64,000 nucleotides of DNA, taken from assembly GCA_030295235.1 (NCBI GenBank), contig AP026139.1, forward strand, positions 310,001 to 374,000, in the 5' to 3' direction. Each line of letters starts with the position of its first letter. The first letter of the stretch is position 1. Positions 6,640 through 47,060 of this stretch are shown in pieces. A model generated the notes under the pieces. That model made no database searches and had not been told where the DNA came from. It saw only the letters and a list, made by a program, of their open reading frames with translations. A program made the position numbers and the translations under genes. The DNA comes from Fistulifera solaris. Lineage: Eukaryota; Bacillariophyta; Bacillariophyceae; Naviculales; Stauroneidaceae.

Positions 6640-7019
6640 TCTTGTGCTCTGCTGCATTATACTGCCTCTATGAGGTTCACTTGAACCGAGCGCAGCCGTT
6701 GCACAGTCTCTGGGAAACTGACTTGTGCTAATAACGCTAAACGAATACGAGAAGAGTCTATCTTCATTGACAGTCATATCGGAACACAACGCAGCAAAAG
6801 GGTGGCTGTTGTTCTATGCTTTAGTTTTGTCAAATTTGTACGGTTGCTTCTACCCTTGCTTTGACACAGTTTCAATGTGAGTTTTAAATCCATGGCTTGT
6901 TCGTATTTTATAGTTATAAATTCGATGCATGCTTAAATCCATCATTTATCAACTGCGAAGAATAGGCATTATGGATCGGCAAGCACGTCGTCAAGGGAGA
7001 CCGGGAAAGCCGTGCAGAT
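6640..7019. other. Spacer between tRNA-Sec copy 2 and the inverted repeat
   Basis: No gene, repeat or clear motif is seen here beyond the shared 3' flank of the tRNA copies. The left arm of the large inverted repeat starts at about 7020. Confidence 0.5.
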
Positions 7020-7573
7020 CTGTTACAAAGTAGGCGTACGCGGCGACAACGCTTGTCAACTATAGAGGCAGTGGAGCTGGGGCAGTTAGGTAACTGGTCA
7101 GATATGAACCAGCGAAACAGTCGGGGTTAGACTTATATTCACACTTGTAGAGAATCACTAACTCTGAGGCGTTGCAATAATCATCTACTACAGTATAATA
7201 TTGCGGCGTAAGTTTTAATAAGAAAACGATGCAAACTCAATCATTAATATTAATAATAAAAACACTTGAAAGAACGAGTCTCTCTGCGATGGAATGGGGT
7301 AACTTCAACGAAAGAACAAACAGCAACAATATCAATGGAAGAACACAAGTACCTAAAACGAGTACAAAGGAAGGAAATCGAAAGGACATCAAGTCAAAAC
7401 GGCAGAAGGTCGAACGTCGGTTCATCAAGATAAATTGCTCCCGTGAACAGCCAAAGAAACTGTCTATTCATCGAGATGACCGGATATGAGTGGATGGACT
7501 GTGAAGATCCCCATGAACACCAGACAAGGACAAGGAAAACCTCTCTGATCAGCGCGTATGCGTCGGTGGTCAA

Positions 7574-9022
7574 TCATCCAAGCATCAAATTCGATGAGTT
7601 CCGGGCAATGCGGCGCGTTGTTTTCTTCGTTCGTTCCTGGACGCATTCAAACGAATTCGAAGATCCACACTCGCATTCATCATCAAAATTGAAGCCCAGC
7701 TCCAAAACTAGCAGCTCCAATGACTCGAGTGATTCCAAACAGGACAACTCCAACAACGCAGCTTCATCCTCGAACGAATCAGGTCCATTATGGACATTAT
7801 TGCGAACTTCGGAAGCACCTTGTAGCACCTTGCACGGCTTTGCGACAGAGGATACTGCCTTTTCGTCATCAACATCATCTAACTCATCTGCGTCCATGAC
7901 ATCGAAAAACTCTGCAATGAGCGAATCCCAGGTTGCTTCATCATCATCACTTGCCACTTCAACATCCTTTGCGGCGTCTGGTAGACTGACTCCTGCATGA
8001 TTTGCGTAGAAGTCATCAATCTTTTTGTCAGCGGTGAGGTCTAGTAGGCTGCTGATATCATCATCCTTGTCGTTCTCTTCAGCAAGCTCTGGGACGCTAT
8101 CGTCTTCGTCGTCGCCGTCATCGATTGTGATGATTTCAGGCTGTTGCTCCATTGCAACTTCAACTTCAACTCCAAGTCCCACTCCAACGGATTCTTCAAC
8201 AGCAGCACCACCACCACTGCGGAGCTTAACAACACTTGCTCCCAGCTCTGCGATCCAAGCGACTATCTCGCGATGGCTTCATGCCGGTACTCTCGACAAG
8301 GTCGTCAATTGCAGCCCAGTCGGGAGAAGAATTGTAATCATTCTCCTTCATCCAGTCCATCAACTTGTCGATCTGCCATTTCTTTAACCCCTTACTGCTT
8401 GCTGAAACAGGACGCTGGCTGCTCGGTAGGAGTAGGAAAGGGACAGCGATTGCTGGCCGGGAAACAGGATGCGACGGGATGATGAACTACGTTTGTTGCG
8501 ACGCGTTCTCCCTTCAGTCCTTTCCGGCTTTTCTTCAAACATCATCATTCTTTTTCTGACCGCAAATACGGACGTTTGCGAGAAGCAGAAGCACCCGTTT
8601 TCACCTCCCATCACTGCAGCAACAGCAGCAGCAACAGGATCAAGTGACGCTGCTGCGGCCGTACCCGTAACGACACTCGCCGACGCAGTACTCTGCGTCT
8701 GAAAGGCAGCCATATCACTCAATTCCTTTCTCAAGATCTTGAAACTGTCGTCAAGGATTGCGTCAAGCGTGGTTAATTCACCGCGACGAACGACGCTATG
8801 CTCTGTATGCTGCAAAGCCTTGAATTGGTCTCCAAATAGAATCGCAAGACTAACGGTCTCTTCGACAGAGAAACCGCTAGCAGGAACCCACTGCTTCGAT
8901 TTCCACTGAGACCCACTGCTCTTGCGGATATCCTCCTTCTTCTCGAGTACTTTGTTAGCTAACGACACGAAGAGAGGCAACTCTTCGTGCCAAACGACAG
9001 GACTGACTGTGTTATTTTTCAT
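7574..9022 (-). CDS. Repeat-family acidic protein, copy 1 (homeodomain-like region, frameshifted)
   Basis: The start is the ATG at 9022. An N-terminal region of about 130 residues (EELPLFVSLANKVLEKKED, GFSVEETVSLAILFGDQFK) is conserved in all three copies and resembles nothing I recognise. It is followed by an Ala-rich stretch and a basic, Ser-rich segment. Next comes a region with the spacing of a homeodomain-like helix-turn-helix (KLMDWMKENDYNSSPDW then GMKPSQIVAWIAEL). The tail is strongly acidic (EENDKDDDISSLLDL) and Glu/Leu-rich. The frame shifts between the basic part and the helical part, and one extra G after GMKPS is shared with copy 2. A nuclear DNA-binding or regulatory role is inferred from this layout only. 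Confidence 0.5.
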
Positions 9023-9803
9023 TTTGTTTGCTTTGCGATGCTGCGGACACTTGACTTTGTCAATTGTGCTATATGTAAGCGATTTCAAACCTTCAAGACA
9101 TCAAAAGCAAGCACAGGGGTGAGTAAAGACTTCATCTCTTATGAGAACGAGACAAAAGGGTGCGAAAGTAGACGTTAATAAAGATCTTCATGGTAACTTA
9201 CCTTTCAACACGGCGATTCCTTTGAAAAGTGCGAACAAAGCAGCGAAAATATACAGCAGCGGTACGGCTTATAGATAGAATAGACCTCTGTCCATTCCCA
9301 GTTCACTCCAACAGGGAGGGAGTGAACAGGGATTTTGTTCGAACAAGGAGTGAACTGGGAGCATTTCCTGTACGAATTAATGCGTCCCGTTTACGAAATA
9401 TGGTAGTCAGTCCCTAATCCTTAACGCTTTAGGCTTGTTCTTATCAGTGCACATGTGCAGCATATTTGCACATATTTTTCGAACTAACCCGGAAATGCGC
9501 GCCCGTCGGCCATTTTTTCGTGTGCACCGGCTCGATTAAAATTGCAAAACTCATCAATTATTTATAATTATGCACATCCTTGCACATCGTTGGGAGTCTT
9601 GCACACGGATAATTTACGATCGTTCACGAATGCTTCTTAACAAAAAAACAACGCAAAATTTTTCGTCCCTATTTCCATTTCGGCTTGCTCTCTTGTTTGC
9701 CATCCCCCGCGCGTTCTTCCGACCAACGTTTGCTCTCAGAACAACAGTAAATCGTTTGTGGTACTGCATTTACCCTCATAATATAGCCCCATCGGTCAAG
9801 AAA

Positions 9804-15189: not shown

Positions 15190-17838
15190 TGATTCACGAG
15201 TTTGAGACGGAGATTCAGTACCACGAGAAGGAATGAAACAACCCACGTCTTCACGAAGAGATAGTAAGATGAGGCGCTGAAAGGCTCAAGCGCATGCGAC
15301 GCAGTGGAAATTTCATCGTCTTAGGAGAGTGAGGCGCTGGCAGTCCGCACCGTAACATGATACGCAGGACGATAACGAGTCGATGAGTGATGATTCAAAG
15401 GCATATCAGAGGACAATACGTTGTTTTCAGAGCAAAGATGACATCATGGTGTGATTTTGGGTTGAAAGCGAGCTGCGGTGTATTTTTTCTACGTGATTTG
15501 AGTACCACGTATTCGCATGTAGCGAGGACTACCAAGGCTACGTTACTATTATACAATATACGATACAAATGTGAGAGTACAACGAATTCTATCTATAAGC
15601 CGTACCGCTGCTGTATATTTTCGCTGCTTTGTTCGCACTTTTCAAAGGAATCGCCCGTGTTGAAAGGTAAGTTACCATGAAGATCTTTATTAACGTCTAC
15701 TTTCGCACCCTTTTGTCTCGTTCTCATAAGAGATGAAGTCTTTACTCACCCCTGTGCTTGCTTTTGATGTCTTGAAGGTTTGAAATCGCTTACAAATAGC
15801 ACAATTGACAAAGTCAAGTGTCCGCAGCATCGCAAAGCAAACAAAATGAAAAATAACACAGTCAGTCCTGTCGTTTGGCACGAAGAGTTGCCTCTCTTCG
15901 TGTCGTTAGCTAACAAAGTACTCGAGAAGAAGGAGGATATCCGCAAGAGCAGTGGGTCTCAGTGGAAATCGAAGCAGTGGGTTCCTGCTAGCGGTTTCTC
16001 TGTCGAAGAGACCGTTAGTCTTGCGATTCTATTTGGAGACCAATTCAAGGCTTTGCAGCATACAGAGCATAGCGCCGTTCGTCAGCGGTGAATTAACCAC
16101 GCTTGACGCAATCCTTGACGACAGTTTCAAGATCTTGAGAAAGGAATTGAGTGATATGGCTGCCTTTCAGACGCAGAGTACTGCGTCGGCGAGTGTCGTT
16201 ACGGGTACGGCCGCAGCAGCGTCACTTGATCCTGTTGCTGCTGCTGTTGCTGCAGTGATGGGAGGTGAAACGGGTGCTTCTGCTTCTAGCAGTCCGTATT
16301 TGCGGTCGAAAAAGAATGATGATGTTTGAAGAAAAGCCGGAAAGGACCGAAGGGAGAACGCTCGCAACAAACGTAGTTCATCATCCCGTCGCATCCTGTT
16401 TCCCGGCCAGCAATCGCTGTCCCTTTCCTACTCCTACCGAGCAGCCGCGTCCTGTTTCAGCAAGCAGTAAGGGGTTAAAGAAATGGCAGATCGACAAGTT
16501 GATGGACTGGATGAAGGAGAATGATTACAATTCTTCTCCCGACTGGGCTGCAATTGACGACCTTGTCGAGAGTACCGGCATGAAGCCATCGCGAGATAGT
16601 CGCTTGGATCGCAGAGCTGGGAGCAAGTGTTGTTAAGCTCCGCAGTGGTGGTGGTGCTGCTGTTGAAGAATCCGTTGGAGTGGGACTTGGAGTTGAAGTT
16701 GAAGTTGCAATGGAGCAACAGCCTGAAATCATCACAATCGATGACGGCGACGAAGACGATAGCGTCCCAGAGCTTGCTGAAGAGAACGACAAGGATGATG
16801 ATATCAGCAGCCTACTAGACCTCACCGCTGACGAAAAGATTGATGACTTCTACGCAAATCATGCAGGAGTCAGTCTACCAGACGCCGCAAAGGATGTTGA
16901 AGTGGCAAGTGATGATGATGAAGCAACCTGGGATTCGCTCATTGCAGAGTTTTTCGATGTCATGGACGCAGATGAGTTAGATGATGTTGATGACGAAAAG
17001 GCAGTATCCTCTGTCGCAAAGCCGTGCAAGGTGCTACAAGGTGCTTCCGAAGTTCGCAATAATGTCCATAATGGACCTGATTCGTTCGAGGATGAAGCTG
17101 CGTTGTTGGAGTTGTCCTGTTTGGAATCACTCGAGTCATTGGAGCTGCTAGTTTTGGAGCTGGGCTTCAATTTTGATGATGAATGCGAGTGTGGATCTTC
17201 GAATTCGTTTGAATGCGTCCAGGAACGAACGAAGAAAACAACGCGCGCATTGCCCGGAACTCATCGAATTTGATGCTTGGATGATTGACCACCGACGCAT
17301 ACGCGCTGATCAGAGAGGTTTTCCTTGTCCTTGTCTGGTGTTCATGGGGATCTTCACAGTCCATCCACTCATATCCGGTCATCTCGATGAATAGACAGTT
17401 TCTTTGGCTGTTCACGGGAGCAATTTATCTTGATGAACCGACGTTCGACCTTCTGCCGTTTTGACTTGATGTCCTTTCGATTTCCTTCCTTTGTACTCGT
17501 TTAGGTACTTGTGTTCTTCCATTGATATTGTTGCTGTTTGTTCTTTCGTTGAAGTTACCCCATTCCATCGCAGAGAGACTCGTTCTTTCAAGTGTTTTTA
17601 TTATTAATATTAATGATTGAGTTTGCATCGTTTTCTTATTAAAACTTACGCCGCAATATTATACTGTAGTAGATGATTATTGCAACGCCTCAGAGTTAGT
17701 GATTCTCTACAAGTGTGAATATAAGTCTAACCCCAACTGTTTCGCTGGTTCATATCTGACCAGTTACCTAACTGCCCCAGCTCCACTGCCTCTATAGTTG
17801 ACAAGCGTTGTCGCCGCGTACGCCCTACTTTGTAACAG
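15190..17838 (-). repeat. Right arm of the large inverted repeat (uninterrupted)
   Basis: This is the reverse-complement partner of 7020-13960. It lacks the MITE and Harbinger insertions and so preserves the pre-insertion sequence around 15590. It holds an opposite-strand copy of the acidic protein gene. The arms differ by scattered substitutions and small indels in the gene, for example one extra base near 16085. The outer end is at TGTAACAG, 75 bp from the end of the neighbouring unknown gene. Confidence 0.85.
15846..17273 (+). CDS. Repeat-family acidic protein, copy 2 (frameshifted)
   Basis: It is nearly identical to copy 1 but on the other strand. The start is the ATG at 15846. Upstream, GTAAGT near 15667 and an acceptor-like AG before CACAATTGAC suggest a spliced 5' exon, conserved in copy 3. 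Relative to copy 1 it has one extra base near 16085 (CGTCAGCGG against CGTCGCGG) that ends the N-terminal frame early. The helix-turn-helix-like region and acidic tail continue in other frames. It shares the extra G after GMKPS with copy 1, so that change predates the arm duplication. Confidence 0.5.
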
Positions 17839-38036: not shown

Positions 38037-38882
38037 TTACATTACCATCGCCGGAAACAATTCGCGACGACTCGCTTGTCCGAAATACAGACCCGCGACG
38101 ACCAAGAGTAGATTTATGGCGGCTTTGTTATCACTACACACTGCACGGTGTTGTGCGACCTTTACAACAAGTTTACGTAAGGTGGCAGCATCTTGTCGAT
38201 GTAAGGGCGTTTCCAGTCGTGCCAAGAGTGCATAGCACCACTCATAATACTGTGAACTAGTAAGTTGTGTGGAAGAAGCCAAATGTTGTAAGACGCGACG
38301 TATCATGACTTGATCCAGTTGACACACCAGTTGCACCGTCGGCATATGATATCCTTCCGGTGGCAGTGCGTCTTTCCAGGCGGCGCTGGTGGTAGCGTCA
38401 TCGTCATCAGTAGTTTCTTCGACGTGCCCGCTACAAAACTGGATCCATCCGGCTCGATCTTTCATGGACGGAACGGTCGGGAGGAATCGATGTTCTTTTC
38501 CACCAACTCCTTGTTGATGACACACGCTTAAATACTCTCGTAATTGTTCAAATATCTCTAAAGTTTGCGCAATCCACGCGGCTTCGTGGGGAATTCTTTC
38601 TTTCGGCAGTGGAATTTGCGTGGACAATAAATACTGCAGGGAAGCCGCCGACCCATCCAAAATTTCATAGCCAGCCTTGTGAGAGGAAATGTGTGTTTGT
38701 GAAGAAGCTACGAGGGATGTATCGGGAATGCCGCGAGCTTGCTGGGCAACGCGTTGCAAATACTCGGAAGCTTCCATCGTATCGACATCGTCAAAAGAGA
38801 TTGTGTTGTTGTTGTTGTTGTTGTCGTCGTCGTCGTAGTCAAAACGTTTCCGTTTTGTCGGTAGACAGGGCTGTTGAGACAT
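38037..38882 (-). CDS. GEMIN2: Gemin2 / SIP1 family, SMN complex
   Basis: The protein has 281 residues from the ATG at 38882. Gemin2 hallmarks are visible: EYLQRVAQQARGIPD near the N-terminus, AGWIQFCSG in the middle, and YYEWCYALLARLETPLH followed by KAAINLLLVVAGLYFGQ at the end. Gemin2 clamps the Sm pentamer before snRNP core assembly. The N-terminal region has an Asp/Asn repeat (from TTG/TCG repeats on the plus strand at 38800-38840). It is divergent from the OsmC-like gene. Confidence 0.85.
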   Translation of the reverse strand: MSQQPCLPTKRKRFDYDDDDNNNNNNTISFDDVDTMEASEYLQRVAQQARGIPDTSLVASSQTHISSHKAGYEILDGSAASLQYLLSTQIPLPKERIPHEAAWIAQTLEIFEQLREYLSVCHQQGVGGKEHRFLPTVPSMKDRAGWIQFCSGHVEETTDDDDATTSAAWKDALPPEGYHMPTVQLVCQLDQVMIRRVLQHLASSTQLTSSQYYEWCYALLARLETPLHRQDAATLRKLVVKVAQHRAVCSDNKAAINLLLVVAGLYFGQASRRELFPAMVM

Positions 38883-39145
38883 GATTGTCGAACAGTGGAA
38901 GGAAAGATGTGCAAACCGTAGCACTTCTAAAGTATAAATGGATGAACTATAAACGAAAAAAGAAAATTGTGAGGCGCTGTCGTCGCGATGAGGAGGTGTC
39001 GAGATAATTAAGGTTACGCGTTATGAGCTAAAAAGATTGTGATCAGAAAAGAAAAAGATGCAAAATAAGTCGTAAACAAAACATCAAAGAATATAATTCG
39101 GATTATCGTGGTTTGAAGAATGCTTTCTCTGTTAGAACAATACAA

Positions 39146-39835
39146 ATGAGATTGATACTTGGTCGACAAAGCGCTTGGCTTGCAATGGCTCTACCGACGG
39201 CATCTTCGCTTCGTGGAGCATCACCACTGCTTGTTCGACGCTCCCACAGAATGAATGACACAGCAGGTAGTCAGGACAATTCCGAAGCTACTGCCAAAAA
39301 GTATACATTCAACGGCTGTTCGGACGACGAAAATAAGAGTTCTGTGGCCGTAACGTTTAATACGGGTCACACAATGACAACGGATTTGCCCCTTCGTATG
39401 GGAGGTAAGGATCAGGCCCCGCAACCGGTCGAATGCTTGTTAGCGGCTTGGGCGGGATGTACGCAAGCAACGGCCTTATTTGTGAGTCGGCAACTGATGC
39501 GAGATAATAAGCGTAGTCCGCTACTAGAACGAATGGAATTTGTCAACATTACGGCAACACGAGATGAACGAGGAGCCTTGGCGTTGGCGATCCACGAAGA
39601 TCCGCCCGCACAGAGTCGAATCCAGACCCTTGCCGGAACCATTGTGGTGTGGCCTTCGTTCGACGAAGAATTGTTGCAATTGTTGCAAGAACAAACCGAA
39701 TTGCGATGTCCGGTAGCCAGTATGCTTAGCGCGAGTGGTTGTCGTATGAACGTGGAGTGGATCAATGGAGATGAAAAAGAGAATAGGAGAAGCGTTTTCT
39801 CTAGAAACAGGAACAAGAGCAATATTCCATTGTAG
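39146..39835 (+). CDS. OsmC/Ohr-family protein, probably organellar
   Basis: The OsmC fold covers residues ~50-225. The conserved Cys pair of peroxide-reducing OsmC/Ohr proteins can be seen: AAWAGCTQAT and LRCPVASML. The N-terminal ~35 residues are basic and Ser/Ala-rich (RLILGRQSAWLAMALPTA), consistent with a mitochondrial presequence. The start is the ATG at 39146; the frame is open further upstream without an ATG. Reduction of organic hydroperoxides is the usual role of the family; the exact subgroup is not decided. Confidence 0.78.
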   Translation: MRLILGRQSAWLAMALPTASSLRGASPLLVRRSHRMNDTAGSQDNSEATAKKYTFNGCSDDENKSSVAVTFNTGHTMTTDLPLRMGGKDQAPQPVECLLAAWAGCTQATALFVSRQLMRDNKRSPLLERMEFVNITATRDERGALALAIHEDPPAQSRIQTLAGTIVVWPSFDEELLQLLQEQTELRCPVASMLSASGCRMNVEWINGDEKENRRSVFSRNRNKSNIPL

Positions 39836-40252: not shown

Positions 40253-43200
40253 ATGACTCTATCCAATTCGTTCACATACCGTCGATTTCTTCGTCTTTTT
40301 CTACTGGGTGCCTTTTCTGCGGCAGCGCCCGACTTTTTGGGTGTTCCCACGACTGCCGGACCACTCGATGACGCCAAATGCAATGTCGAAGATTTAGAAC
40401 AAGCCAATGATCTGCAACTGTTTGTCATTTTACAAGAATTGCGCAATACGACCTTCTTTCGCAACTTCTTAGTCGATCTCGATCGTCCTTGTCCTTTGCA
40501 GTCTTGGAGAAAAAGAGACAGCGAGCAAGAAGAAGAAGAGGAATTTGAATGCGGCGGTAATGAGGAAGCGGATGAAGATGCTGAACCGGCTTGTCATGTT
40601 GATCTTAGTTCGAATAGCAACCCCTTTTCGTCGAATGCCTTATTTTCCATGGCTACCACAGGATTCGAATCGAAGGCACAAAAGGACACATTTAAGTGGC
40701 AGAAACAAACCGATATTGTGGTCAAAGACGAAGAGCCCTGCGAAGAGCCGCTTTTGCCCGATTCCTTTTGGATTGATATTTGTAGTCCTCCGGGGAAAAC
40801 GGCGGAAGAAAAGCTTGTTAATTTGGCTATGAATCCTGAAAAGAATACCGGATACAACGGGACGCACATTTGGAAAGCCATTTATGAGGAAAATTGTTTA
40901 ATGGTCGATGATATGAACAGTAAAGAACTGATGTGTTTCGAAGAACGTGTCTTGTACCGGCTGTTGTCGGGATTGCACACGTCCACGACATTGTCGATTG
41001 CTATGAACTACTATCCGCCATCCAAGCGAAAGGGACGGACCGAATACGAAGCAAATCCGGATTATTTTATGAAGAAGTTCCATGATAATCCGGAACACAT
41101 TCGGAATTTGCATTTCTCGTACGTCGTTTTGTTACGTGCCTTGCAAAAGGCAGCACCGGTGCTACACGAATTTGATATTCGAACGGGGGATATTGTGGAA
41201 GACGAAACGGCCAAAGTGCTGTTGCGTCGATTGTTGGATTCAGCCATTTTGCAATCCTGTTCGAACGTCTTTTCGGCGTTTGATGAATCGCTGATGTTTC
41301 AGCAGGATACTCGTTTTAATGTTGTTACTCTGCAGAAAAATTTCAAAGGCGTCTTTCACAATGTATCGTCGATTCTGGATTGCGTGCAATGTCAGCAGTG
41401 TAAATTGCACGGAAAGATGGCCATGTTGGGGTATGGGACGGCACTCAAAGTACTTTTCATGAGAGAAGAGCCACCTGTTATGACTCGAAACGAAATTGTG
41501 GCGTTCATCAACACTATTGCGAAGTTCTCTGAAAGCATTCGTCAGGTCCGTGAACTTACGCATCTTTATTTAGAGAAACAAGAGCAAAAGGTGGCCAAAA
41601 TGAAACAGACAGCCGCCCTGCCTCAACATATTACAATTGTGGATGGAATTACAATAGACGCTTTGGATGGTGCCGTAGGTCTCATTGCCAAGTTAGGTCA
41701 GGAAAATCTTATCGATTGGGAAAGAGAGGCTGAACTTGTGCAGTTGGCTTTAGAGCGAAATCCAGAGTTGTTGATTTTGGTAAAACATTACGGTAACGAC
41801 GTGTCGAAATTCCTCGAGCTGGCAAGTTCGATCGGATTCGTCGATACAAAAGCGCCGCTTCCAGATGCCATAATCGTAGGAAGTGGCCTGGCAGGCCTAT
41901 CGGTCGCTCTCAATATTCTTGATCGAGGTGGAAGTGTTGTGATTATTGAAAAGGAACACCTACTTGGTGGAAACTCGAACAAGGCTAGCTCTGGTATCAA
42001 TGCGTACGTCTCACCTGACGAAGCAGGCGCTGACTCCTTGGATTTATTTCGCAATGACACTACCCGTTCAGCAGGATCGTCCGCCCGTCAAGACTTGATT
42101 GATGTGTTGGTTACTAATAGTGGATCGGCTGTCACTTGGCTACGCGAGCGAGTTGGTGTAGACCTTTCGCTGAAGGCACAGCTGGGTGGCCATTCCTCGA
42201 AACGTACACATCGGCCAAGCAACGGTATGGCGGGTGCAGAAATTATTTACGGTATGCAGAAGGCTGTCAGAGAGTATGAGCAGACAGGCCGTGTGAAAAT
42301 ATTAGTTGATACTCGAGTTAGCTCATTAGTAGCGGATGATAACGGTGCTGTTATTGGAGTTGAATGCATCAGTGCTGGAATAGACGAGGCCTACAAGCTA
42401 CATGCACCCAACGTAATTTTAGCTACAGGTGGATTCGCTGCTGACCGTTCCTCTGGATCTTATCTGGAACAGTATCGACCTGAATTGTTGAAGTTCCCCA
42501 CGACAGCGGGCCCATTCTCCACCGGTGATGGAATATCCCTTGCGACAACTTTAGGTGCGGGAACTGTTGACATGAGTAAAGTACAAGTGCACCCAACTGG
42601 TTGGGTCGATCCTAAAGATCCCGACAATACAAGCAAAGTCTTGGCGGCTGAGCTTATGCGGGGCGTTGGGGGCATTCTTATCAACAAAGAAGGGGATAGA
42701 TTTGTCAACGAACTCGGAACAAGAGCACACATTACGGAACGAATGCTCTCTCATGACCCCATTTACGAAAAAAACGGTGCATGGGATAAGAGTCGGCCGG
42801 TACCAACTTTCTCGCTCGTCCTCTCGTCGTCTGCTGCGGAAGAGGCTAAGAAACATGTGGATTTGTACAGTCACAAAGGCTTACTTACTCGAATAGAGGG
42901 TGTGTCTCTTCTTGCACGGTGGATGAATGTACCGAAAGCGAAATTAGTTAAGACTTTTCAAGATTACCAGGATGCATCTAAGGCTGGAAGTGATGCATTT
43001 GGAAGAGTTACTTTCCGTAATTTACCAGCCGAGTCATTGGAAAATGAAGTTTTTTATGCAGGGACTGTGACACCTGTATTGCATTATTGTATGGGAGGGA
43101 TTACAATCGACACCGAAGGGTATGTGTTGAATGTGAACGGTGAACGAATACCTGGTCTGCATGCAGCGGGGGAAGTGACCGGGGGTGTTCACGGCGTAAA

Positions 43201-43564
43201 TCGACTGGCTGGGAATTCGCTACTAGAATGCACTGTCTTCGGATCTCTAATTGGACGCAGAATTCCGATCGCAAACCCAATTAATCGCGGGCCCAAACAA
43301 GGTCAAGGAATGAAATCCAACAAAGACACCTCGCTACGCAACGTCTCATCAGCTGAACTTCATCAGCACAACACCGAAGATGATTGCTGGGTTGCAATTC
43401 ATGGTGTCGTGTACGACCTTACAGAATTTGCAAGTGAGCACCCAGCAGGTCCTGAGTCTATTTGGAGTCTGGCTGGGGGCGACGGAACCGAAGCTTTTGA
43501 TGCTGTGCACAATAAAGGACTACTTGAAGACTTTGCCGAAGATCGAATTGGTCTTCTCGTATGA
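40253..43564 (+). CDS. ERO1 - soluble fumarate reductase - cytochrome b5 fusion
   Basis: One uninterrupted frame of 1103 residues holds three redox modules. Residues 1-30 are a signal peptide (RRFLRLFLLGAFSAAAPDFLG). Residues ~40-440 are ERO1: C43, RPCP (C80), C100 and C114, LHTSTTLSIAMNYYPP, and the inner active site C377-x2-C380-x2-C383 in LDCVQCQQCKLHGK. Residues ~538-1010 are an OSM1-type FAD fumarate reductase: GSGLAGLSVAL (G543-G548), LLGGNSNKASSG, QVHPTGW, VLHYCMGGITID and NRLAGNSLLEC. Residues ~1025-1103 are cytochrome b5 with haem ligands H1063 (HPAG) and H1086. ERO1 oxidises PDI and normally passes electrons to O2. The fusion suggests an ER route from thiols through FAD and haem to fumarate. 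The start is the ATG just before the signal peptide. Confidence 0.9.
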   Translation: MTLSNSFTYRRFLRLFLLGAFSAAAPDFLGVPTTAGPLDDAKCNVEDLEQANDLQLFVILQELRNTTFFRNFLVDLDRPCPLQSWRKRDSEQEEEEEFECGGNEEADEDAEPACHVDLSSNSNPFSSNALFSMATTGFESKAQKDTFKWQKQTDIVVKDEEPCEEPLLPDSFWIDICSPPGKTAEEKLVNLAMNPEKNTGYNGTHIWKAIYEENCLMVDDMNSKELMCFEERVLYRLLSGLHTSTTLSIAMNYYPPSKRKGRTEYEANPDYFMKKFHDNPEHIRNLHFSYVVLLRALQKAAPVLHEFDIRTGDIVEDETAKVLLRRLLDSAILQSCSNVFSAFDESLMFQQDTRFNVVTLQKNFKGVFHNVSSILDCVQCQQCKLHGKMAMLGYGTALKVLFMREEPPVMTRNEIVAFINTIAKFSESIRQVRELTHLYLEKQEQKVAKMKQTAALPQHITIVDGITIDALDGAVGLIAKLGQENLIDWEREAELVQLALERNPELLILVKHYGNDVSKFLELASSIGFVDTKAPLPDAIIVGSGLAGLSVALNILDRGGSVVIIEKEHLLGGNSNKASSGINAYVSPDEAGADSLDLFRNDTTRSAGSSARQDLIDVLVTNSGSAVTWLRERVGVDLSLKAQLGGHSSKRTHRPSNGMAGAEIIYGMQKAVREYEQTGRVKILVDTRVSSLVADDNGAVIGVECISAGIDEAYKLHAPNVILATGGFAADRSSGSYLEQYRPELLKFPTTAGPFSTGDGISLATTLGAGTVDMSKVQVHPTGWVDPKDPDNTSKVLAAELMRGVGGILINKEGDRFVNELGTRAHITERMLSHDPIYEKNGAWDKSRPVPTFSLVLSSSAAEEAKKHVDLYSHKGLLTRIEGVSLLARWMNVPKAKLVKTFQDYQDASKAGSDAFGRVTFRNLPAESLENEVFYAGTVTPVLHYCMGGITIDTEGYVLNVNGERIPGLHAAGEVTGGVHGVNRLAGNSLLECTVFGSLIGRRIPIANPINRGPKQGQGMKSNKDTSLRNVSSAELHQHNTEDDCWVAIHGVVYDLTEFASEHPAGPESIWSLAGGDGTEAFDAVHNKGLLEDFAEDRIGLLV

Positions 43565-44680: not shown

Positions 44681-44904
44681 GCTGGGTACCCGAAGTAGCC
44701 CGTCATGGATTATCGACTATAATAGCAACTCTTCAAAAAAATAACTCGTCGGAACGCTACATCTTGCACTCAAAAGTTGCTTTTCGTAGGCGAAATTTTG
44801 GAAAACAAGCGATCGAAGCCGGGTCAAACCGCGTGATAATGGGCACTGATTAAGGAGTTAAAGCAGCAGATTCTAGCTTCCAACGATACAAATCATATCA
44901 ATGC

Positions 44905-47060
44905 GACCACGAGAAGGAGAGAAACGATCCAGGTCTTCACGAAAGGCAGTAAGATGAGGCGTTGAAAGGCCAACACCACTCGAGCGCACGCGAGGTAATG
45001 GGGAGTTTTTTCACATCTTAGGAGTGCGAGGCGCGACAGTCCGCACCGTACACAATACCCAGGACGGTAAGGAGTCGATGAGTGACGATGCAACGTATAT
45101 CAGACGATATTACGTTGCTTTCAGAGCAAAGATGACATCATAGTGTGATTTTTGGTTGAAAGCGACCTGCGGTGTATTTTTTCTACGTGATTTGAGTACC
45201 ACGTATTTGCATGTAGCGAGGACTACCAAGGCTACGTTACTATTGTACACGATACAAATACGACAGTATTGTATCTAAGCCGTACCGCTGCTTATTGTCG
45301 CTGCTTCGTTCGCACTTTTCAAAGGAATCGCTGTGTTGAAAGGTAAGTTACCATGAAGATCTTTATTAACGTCTACTTTCGCACCCTTTTGTCTCTTTCT
45401 TATAAAAGATGAAGTCTTTACTCACCCCTGTGCTTGCTTTTGATGTCTTGAAAGTTTGAAATCACTTACAAATAGCACAATTGACAAAGTCAAGTGTCAG
45501 CAGCATCGCAAAGCAAACAAAATGAAAAATAACACAATCAGTCCTATCGTGGTGGCACAAGGAGCTTCCTCTCCTCGCGGTCGCTCGCTAACAAAGTACT
45601 TGAAAAAAAGAAAGATATCCTTGTGAGCAGCGGGTCTAAATGGAAATCGAAGCAGTGGGTTCCTGCTAGCGGTTTCTCTGTCGAAGAGACGGTGGATATT
45701 GCAATACGATTTGGTGACAAGTTCAAGGCTTTGCGGCATACAGAGCATAGCGTCGTTCGTCGTGGTGAATTTACCACGCTTGACGCGATCCTTGACGACA
45801 GTTTTAAGATCTTGAGAAAGGAGTTGAGTGATATGGCTGCCTTTCAGACGAAGACTACTGCGTCCGCGAGTGAAGTTATGGGTACGGCCGCAACAGCGTC
45901 ACTTGATCCTGTTGCTGCCGCTGTTGCTGCAGTGATGGAGGTGAATTGGCTGTTTCTTCTTCTCGAAAGCGTCCGTATTCGCGGTCGAAAAAGAATGAAA
46001 ATGTTTCGAAGAAAAGCCAGAAAGGACCGAAGAAAGCACGCGTCGCAACAAATGTAGTGCATCATCCCATTGTATCCCGTTTGCCGGCCAGCAATCGTGG
46101 TCCCTCTCCTACTCCTACCGAGCAGCCAGCGTCCTGTTTCAGCAAGTAGTAAGGGGATAGAGAAATGGCAGATCGACATGTTGATGGACTGGATGAAGGA
46201 GAATGATTACAATTCTTCTCCCGACTGGACTGCAATTGACGACCTTGTCAAGCTGCATCGGCATGAAGCCATCGCAGATAGTCGCTTGGATCGCAGAGCT
46301 CGGAGCTAGTGTTGTTAAGCTCCGCAGTGGTGGGGGTGCTGTTGATGATTCAGTGGGAGTGGGACTTGGAGTTGAGGTTGCAACGGAGCAACAGCCAGAA
46401 ATCATCTTAATCGATGATGACAACAACGACGAAGCTGTTAGTGTCCCGGAGCTCGCTGAAGAGAACGACAAGGATGATGATATCAGTAGCCTACTTGACC
46501 TCGCCACGGACGAAATGATTGACGAATTCTACGCAAAGTATGCAGGAGTCAATCTACCAGACGCCACAAATGAAGTTGCAGGTGTTGATGACGAAGGTAC
46601 AGAGCCCACTGTCGCAAAGCCGTGCAAGGTGCTTCAAGATGCTTCCGACGTTCACAATGAGTCCCAAAATGAATCTGAGTCGTCTGGGGGCGGCGAAGCT
46701 GCATTGGAGTCGTCGTGTTTGGAATCACTCGAGTCGTTGGAGCCACTCATTTTTGAGCTTGGCTTCGACTTTGACGATGAATGCGAATGTGAAACTTCAT
46801 TTTCATCTGAGTGCGTGAAGAATCGAGCGAACGACCCGCTCATTAAGGGAAACTCATCGGGTTAGCTGCTTGGATCGTTGACTGCTGATGAAGGTGCGTT
46901 GATCAAAGAGATTGACTTTTCCTTATCTGGCGTTTATGGGGATCTTCACAGTCCATCCACGCATATCCGGTCAGAATTGATTGATAGTATCTTCGGCTGT
47001 TTGCTCCCTGATCGTTTGATCGGATGTTGATGAATGGTTTCGTCTTATCGTCGTTTTCCC
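44905..47060 (+). repeat. Third, diverged copy of the inverted-repeat arm sequence
   Basis: From about 44905 to 47060 the sequence follows the right arm (15225-17430) in the same orientation with many substitutions and small indels. It includes the conserved block CTACGTGATTTGAGTACCAC and the putative 5' exon and intron. It has no MITE or Harbinger insertion. Limits are approximate. Confidence 0.75.
45522..46865 (+). CDS. Repeat-family acidic protein, copy 3 (frameshifted)
   Basis: This diverged copy shows which parts are under constraint. The N-terminal region is retained (GFSVEETVDIAIRFGDKFK). The basic, nuclear-localisation-like segment is clearer than in the other copies (SRSKKNENVSKKSQKGPKKA). 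The helix-turn-helix-like region is intact after GMKPS (QIVAWIAELGASVVKL). The acidic tail is conserved with changes (DDISSLLDLATDEMIDEF). Frame breaks lie between the Ala-rich, basic and helical parts, at different positions from copies 1 and 2. Most substitutions within frames are conservative, which suggests the family was functional for some time after duplication. Confidence 0.5.

Follow-up and report, generated by a model that had tools for sequence, protein, structure and literature searches.

An ERO1, fumarate reductase and cytochrome b5 fusion in the diatom Fistulifera solaris, a predicted thiol:fumarate oxidoreductase

Background

How O2-free disulfide formation proceeds in eukaryotes beyond yeast is, to our knowledge, an open question. 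The locus studied is from the diatom Fistulifera solaris: in the window, the whole stretch of 64,000 nucleotides that was analysed, a sequence-only reading had pointed to one polypeptide joining ERO1, an FAD-dependent fumarate reductase and cytochrome b5. It had proposed that electrons would pass within this molecule from ERO1 to fumarate with the b5 as relay or entry point, and that the enzyme would work without O2 or peroxide and might serve in darkness or anoxia. Is this locus a single gene, and if so, what might its product do? The precedent comes from yeast, where, in the available parts of PMC6242907, Ero1 and Osm1 are two proteins that associate with a Kd of about 150-200 uM and oxidize thiols to form disulfides with fumarate once O2 is depleted. 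For Arabidopsis, the accessible portion of PMC9516139 calls ERO activity strictly O2-dependent.

Results and discussion

A single open frame with three domains

Translation of the window confirmed a single ATG-initiated frame of 1103 codons plus stop on the forward strand (40253-43564), free of internal stops and without any gap calling for an intron. The frame is open upstream to at least 40052 (TTG), with the first ATG at 40253. At the base composition of the window, the probability that any given frame stays open by chance for 1103 codons is about 10^-25.5. Its features are the following:

40253..43564, forward strand: whole fusion coding frame, 1103 amino acids; stop at 43562-43564; same domain order on contig C27
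40253..40354, forward strand: signal peptide region, residues 1-34 (by eye and hydropathy)
40418..41548, forward strand: ERO1 domain, residues 56-432 (Pfam PF04137, 279.8 bits; phmmer matches to human and yeast ERO1 chains)
40550..40594, forward strand: C100 and C114, probably the outer (shuttle) pair, judged from their position after RPCPL, the region of human Cys85
40895..40936, forward strand: C215 and C228, which correspond to human Cys208 and Cys241 in alignment A1
41381..41401, forward strand: inner active site CVQCQQC (C377, C380, C383), aligned with human and yeast ERO1
41573..41857, forward strand: ERO1-reductase linker, residues 441-535; no Pfam domain above cut-off; dN/dS 0.18
41864..43222, forward strand: soluble fumarate reductase (FAD_binding_2), residues 538-990 (Pfam, NCBIfam, Osm1 alignment)
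43268..43336, forward strand: reductase-b5 linker, residues 1006-1028; dN/dS 1.19, p 0.74
43349..43522, forward strand: cytochrome b5 domain, residues 1033-1090 (Pfam), with H1063 and H1086

The first domain is a full ERO1, as had been claimed: the PF04137 match (279.8 bits against a cut-off of 27) spans profile positions 2-354 of 354. An inner CxxCxxC site and SG[LF]H are the motifs of this family, and in the fusion CVQCQQC at residues 377-383 aligns with CVGCFKC of human and CVQCDRC of yeast ERO1, while SGLH is also present (alignment A1). The outer shuttle pair of ERO1 is typically C-x4-C; in the corresponding segment of the fusion, where the MAFFT alignment is not clean, C100 and C114 are separated by 13 residues forming an acidic loop, FECGGNEEADEDAEPAC. 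Judged from this placement, the two probably act as the outer pair, in which case their acidic 13-residue spacer is unusual. Equivalents of human Cys85, 208, 241, 391, 394 and 397 (numbers that we in part presume) are all present in alignment A1. There is no cysteine at residues 115-162, and hence no partners resembling the human regulatory Cys104/Cys131. In the part of PMC6238587 consulted, the C104/131A mutant of human ERO1 is described as deregulated, and Cys208-Cys241 are cited as suggested modulators of oxygen tunnelling to the FAD; the retention of equivalents of the latter pair suggests that the ERO1 domain of the fusion may still use O2.

At the other end of the protein, the Cyt-b5 profile (PF00173) matches residues 1033-1090 with 70.0 bits against a cut-off of 23.7, and the solved structures that this region resembles include chains of cytochrome b5 as well as flavocytochrome b2. 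Both histidines of the sequence-only reading are in place: H1063 (in HPAG) and H1086 (in VHNK) align with histidines of the solved b5 chains and are what we take to be the haem ligands.

A fumarate reductase with an altered second flavin pocket

The middle domain (residues 538-990) matches FAD_binding_2 of Pfam with 268.2 bits and passes the cut-off of the NCBIfam flavocytochrome c subfamily (TIGR01813 flavo_cyto_c, 369.9 bits against 285.45). The best solved-structure match of the whole fusion is a chain named Fumarate reductase 2 (5glg, 274.2 bits), and its identity as Osm1 fits the residue numbers given in the accessible part of PMC6242907. When the residue lists from that source were mapped on the fusion by alignment, all seven fumarate contacts of Osm1 were found to be kept, plus E301 and R304 (Osm1 numbers), as were all six catalytic residues (H281, E301, R304, R326, H435 and R477); together these make up nine different positions, all retained (S579, S580, H780, E800, R803, R824, H944, R984 and G987). 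The 11 FAD contacts named there are likewise all conserved. These domain profiles and conserved residues support the connection with Ero1 and Osm1 of yeast that had been drawn earlier.

Might the acceptor be a related enoate, such as urocanate or acrylate, rather than fumarate? The FAD_binding_2 superfamily acts on several substrates, and urocanate reductase is also among the solved-structure matches (189.9 bits). The retention of every fumarate contact listed for Osm1, the higher score of the Fumarate reductase 2 chain (274.2 bits) and the passing of the flavocytochrome c subfamily cut-off all favour fumarate, and we regard a different enoate as improbable.

The assignment as OSM1-type holds for the subfamily and for the fumarate and catalytic residues, but not for the pocket in which Osm1 oxidizes free flavins. 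Only four of the nine residues listed for this second site in the available text of PMC6242907 are kept (K76, S78, L298 and Y363), with W295 replaced by S, F297 by V, F362 by L and N359 by H, while P162 stands opposite a gap in one alignment and an A in the other. With three pocket aromatics lost, the domain as read from its residues would not be classed with Osm1 proper, the free-flavin-oxidizing type. The altered pocket would fit an electron donor other than free flavin, though this is weak and only suggestive evidence because the second site also varies among bacterial relatives.

These relatives were collected from bacterial and archaeal contigs, in which 470 pattern matches included 414 relatives of the reductase, the best 80 of the 414 having best-segment identities of 34-38%. 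Their frames had been chosen with a motif filter that itself contains HP and R; among these 80, the six catalytic positions are kept in 80/80, and of the nine positions that are catalytic or contact fumarate only S78 (75/80) and S79 (74/80) show any variation. Several positions of the second flavin site vary in the same 80. In 79 of them the match ends at or before query position 481, short of the b5 part, which begins at about position 502; the remaining one (L107) matches up to position 533, through a stretch with a stop codon. No relatives were confirmed in viral contigs in three scans (9, 109 and 21 pattern matches).

Evidence for a single gene under purifying selection

F. solaris is an allodiploid diatom, and in its 51.7 Mb genome (61 contigs) many matches fall in contig pairs. 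Two 23-base targets printed for this species in PMC13276009 each matched the genome exactly twice, on C7/C8 and C38/C39, and the reversed control had no match. The homoeologue of the fusion (C27:361223-364505) encodes all three domains, 95-96% identical at the protein level, in surroundings that are collinear with the window and mostly show 82-90% DNA identity, interspersed with rearranged repeats. On C27 the coding sequence is carried by two overlapping frames, one of 1009 codons with ERO1, the linker and most of the reductase, the other of 142 codons with the end of the reductase and the b5, and both domain junctions lie in open frames. The copy differs from the window by four length changes, a 3-base and a 6-base insertion that keep the frame and two one-base insertions, one in a run of T close to the start, the other in a run of G within the reductase (C27:361232 and C27:364114). 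The first one-base insertion shifts the C27 start region out of frame with the ATG of the window, so that the assembled C27 copy lacks a clean start; this copy is either misassembled or decaying.

A comparable pattern is seen elsewhere in the genome: the L-aspartate oxidase-like homoeologue on C35 has two one-base length differences from its counterpart on C34, in an alignment that also contains a 159-column gap at its upstream edge. For the one-base differences on both C27 and C35, assembly error and decay of the homoeologue are both possible.

We estimated dN/dS between the window and the C27 copy by the Nei-Gojobori method with inserted columns dropped. The whole fusion gave 0.080, residues 1-34 gave 0.44, ERO1 0.025 (one-sided Fisher p 2e-37), the ERO1-reductase linker 0.177 (p 1e-4), the reductase 0.069 (p 2e-24) and the b5 with its tail 0.105 (p 1e-4). 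Purifying selection on ERO1, the first linker, the reductase and the b5 is thus supported; the reductase-b5 linker, with 23 codons and few sites, shows no sign of constraint (dN/dS 1.19, Fisher p 0.74). With gap columns scored as differences, DNA identity between the two copies is 94% within the frame, against 72% and 79% for the flanking sequence.

The two one-base insertions on C27, and the two similar differences on C35 that make small assembly errors or decay possible, could be taken to mean that two genes were misassembled together or yield separate transcripts. Set against this, the ERO1-reductase and reductase-b5 junctions are each open in one frame on two contigs, the linker between ERO1 and the reductase is under purifying selection (p 1e-4), and no stop separates the domains in the window; we consider such an explanation highly improbable. 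The claim of a single gene thereby gained the backing of a collinear second copy with the same domain order, open junctions and a constrained linker.

An assembly join and a pair of separate genes were both rejected as candidate explanations on the strength of the C27 homoeologue and the codon substitutions.

Directly upstream of the fusion is an OsmC-like protein (39113-39835, forward strand, 33.8 bits; 86% DNA identity to C27), and further off a SIP1/Gemin2 homologue (38037-38924, reverse strand, 120.2 bits). A repeat of about 2 kb occurs at 7017-9271, 15225-17637 and 44700-46930 of the window and in several copies, in both orientations, on C27.

Predicted location

The signal peptide of the sequence-only reading stands to the extent that, by eye and by hydropathy, the N-terminus has a basic n-region and a hydrophobic window at residues 13-31. 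ERO1-like sequence (GPLDDAKC) comes directly after residues 1-34, which leaves little room for a plastid transit peptide. The highest 19-residue hydrophobic windows (Kyte-Doolittle values of at most 1.72) fall in the first-strand region of the FAD fold, followed by those in the linker (at 460) and those at the N-terminus, so that by hydropathy the protein appears to have no clear membrane anchor. It would be a soluble enzyme of the ER lumen, although the C-terminus bears no KDEL-like tail, which counts against a lumenal thiol:fumarate enzyme.

Plastid targeting, suggested by LLGA/FSAAAP with a possible phenylalanine at +1, was considered and found unlikely, as ERO1-like sequence starts from about residue 35.

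Other thiol oxidases and reductases of the genome

The ERO1 profile has five matches in the genome (5/5 candidates scored), falling on both copies of the fusion and on one divergent pair of genes:

C19:858775-860043, reverse strand: divergent ERO1 (L027; ERO1 profile)
C20:769844-771132, reverse strand: divergent ERO1 (L028; ERO1 profile)

Both carry a C-x4-C in FECYTESCEI. Read as two exons, the C19 gene scores 152 bits; in alignment A1 its identity to the fusion is 26%, compared with 38% for human ERO1. Its start, GRG/FVVPK, has by eye the look of a plastid presequence of diatoms, with its phenylalanine in the +1 position. A plastid ERO1 would, as far as we know, be unusual. Phenylalanine at this position is the rule for diatom plastid presequences in the part of PMC12136025 consulted. 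If the C19/C20 pair were plastidial, the fusion may be the only ERO1 of the ER. The genome further contains eight Evr1_Alr and four VKOR matches, counted exon by exon, and oxidative folding therefore need not depend on ERO1 alone. By eye, a longer Evr1_Alr frame on C9 is perhaps QSOX-like, and a VKOR frame on C21 has a seemingly thioredoxin-like end.

No further soluble fumarate reductase was seen among the 16 matches listed (15/92 first-look candidates scored). Of the matches, seven are weak; the strong ones outside the fusion, which the reading by eye covered, look like L-aspartate oxidase (C34/C35) and succinate dehydrogenase (C5/C6).

A lumenal thiol:fumarate oxidoreductase?

The reading that we prefer, to which we give a probability of roughly 60%, is that the fusion is a lumenal thiol:fumarate oxidoreductase that would make disulfides and, inside a single chain, hand the electrons on to fumarate. 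PDI-type proteins would donate electrons to the outer cysteines of ERO1, from which these electrons would move to CVQCQQC and the ERO1 FAD, then by way of the tethered b5 haem, or directly from flavin to flavin, to the reductase FAD and finally to fumarate, giving succinate; O2 possibly remains a second acceptor, and the enzyme may serve in darkness or anoxia. Speaking for this reading are the single frame with three domains above cut-offs, the same order on a collinear homoeologous contig with purifying selection on all three, the intact fumarate, catalytic and named FAD residues, the lack of another soluble fumarate reductase among the 16 matches listed (15/92 candidates scored), and the fact that separate Ero1 and Osm1 perform the reaction together in yeast, according to the accessible part of PMC6242907. 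In the docking reported there the flavins of Ero1 and Osm1 are more than 20 A apart, for which its authors offer two models: either the conformation changes, or a relay is missing.

Other observations weigh against it. Equivalents of human Cys208/Cys241 are kept, so reactivity with O2 is possible; single bases are inserted at two places of the C27 copy; and the linker before the b5 shows no constraint. The reading also presupposes that fumarate and haem reach the lumen. According to the same portion of PMC6242907, an Fcc3 haem domain grafted on Osm1, which was misfolded, abolished Ero1 binding in yeast, so that a b5 could obstruct rather than help, and thiol oxidation in the yeast system still worked without Ero1-Osm1 binding, so that tethering is perhaps unnecessary.

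Several of these points also fit an arrangement in which the halves are tethered but uncoupled, with ERO1 acting as an ordinary O2 oxidase, the reductase-b5 half drawing on its own donor (for instance free flavins, or another lumenal reductase reaching the b5), and the fusion merely co-retaining the two in the ER or stabilizing FAD binding. The retained oxygen-access cysteines, the unconstrained reductase-b5 linker and the dispensability of physical binding for the coupled yeast reaction are all compatible with this. A lumenal b5, however, cannot meet the cytosolic b5 reductase, the free-flavin pocket of Osm1 is changed at five of nine residues, and both homoeologues retain the junction between ERO1 and the reductase, with purifying selection acting there. 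We judge uncoupled halves unlikely.

Returning to the thiol:fumarate oxidoreductase, its more far-reaching form, a dedicated enzyme with a built-in b5 wire, O2-independent by design and with ERO1-dependent folding in the ER resting on it, is one that we entertain tentatively and with considerable doubt; ER folding by ERO1 would rest on the fusion because the sole other ERO1 (C19/C20) has an apparent plastid presequence.

Significance

Each of the domains is already known, and the reaction has been rebuilt from separate yeast proteins, as described in the part of PMC6242907 consulted. We found no description of an ERO1-fumarate reductase-b5 fusion in the titles and abstract starts of open-licence papers among the matches listed, in agreement with the earlier statement that no enzyme with this domain order was known. 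As far as these listings show, what is new is the covalent joining of ERO1 and reductase together with a b5. A natural fusion is genetic evidence for a real pathway behind the partnership of Ero1 and Osm1, whose contact in yeast was measured at about 150-200 uM. It also makes the path of the electrons measurable within one protein, and it suggests a built-in route to O2-free folding of secreted proteins. A test within the cell is feasible because Cas9 editing has been published for F. solaris (PMC13276009, consulted in part).

Comparison with known systems

Yeast Osm1, which is 39% identical to the reductase domain (175/444 aligned residues), shares with it the fumarate and named FAD contacts, and the same overall reaction is proposed for both; yet, in the portion of PMC6242907 available, Osm1 is a separate protein, a weak binder of Ero1, without a haem domain and with a free-flavin pocket, whereas the fusion is one chain with a b5 and has five of the nine second-pocket residues changed. 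Human and yeast ERO1 (38% and 37% identity to the fusion domain, alignment A1) have in common with it the whole family profile and the inner active site. The fusion differs from them in the long acidic spacer between its presumed outer cysteines and in being fused at its C-terminus, and it has no match to the Cys104/Cys131 regulatory partners of the human enzyme. Shewanella flavocytochrome c3 (Fcc3) likewise combines a haem domain with a soluble FAD fumarate reductase, a likeness reflected in the passing of the flavocytochrome c subfamily cut-off by the fusion. Fcc3 has an N-terminal multihaem c domain, its reductase beginning near chain position 127 in the alignment, and no ERO1; the diatom protein instead carries a single C-terminal b5 together with an ERO1. 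Flavocytochrome b2, finally, also joins a b5 to a flavoenzyme, with the same 23-residue spacing of the histidines, but it is a lactate dehydrogenase and its b5 is N-terminal (chain positions 5-74), in contrast to the C-terminal b5 of the fusion.
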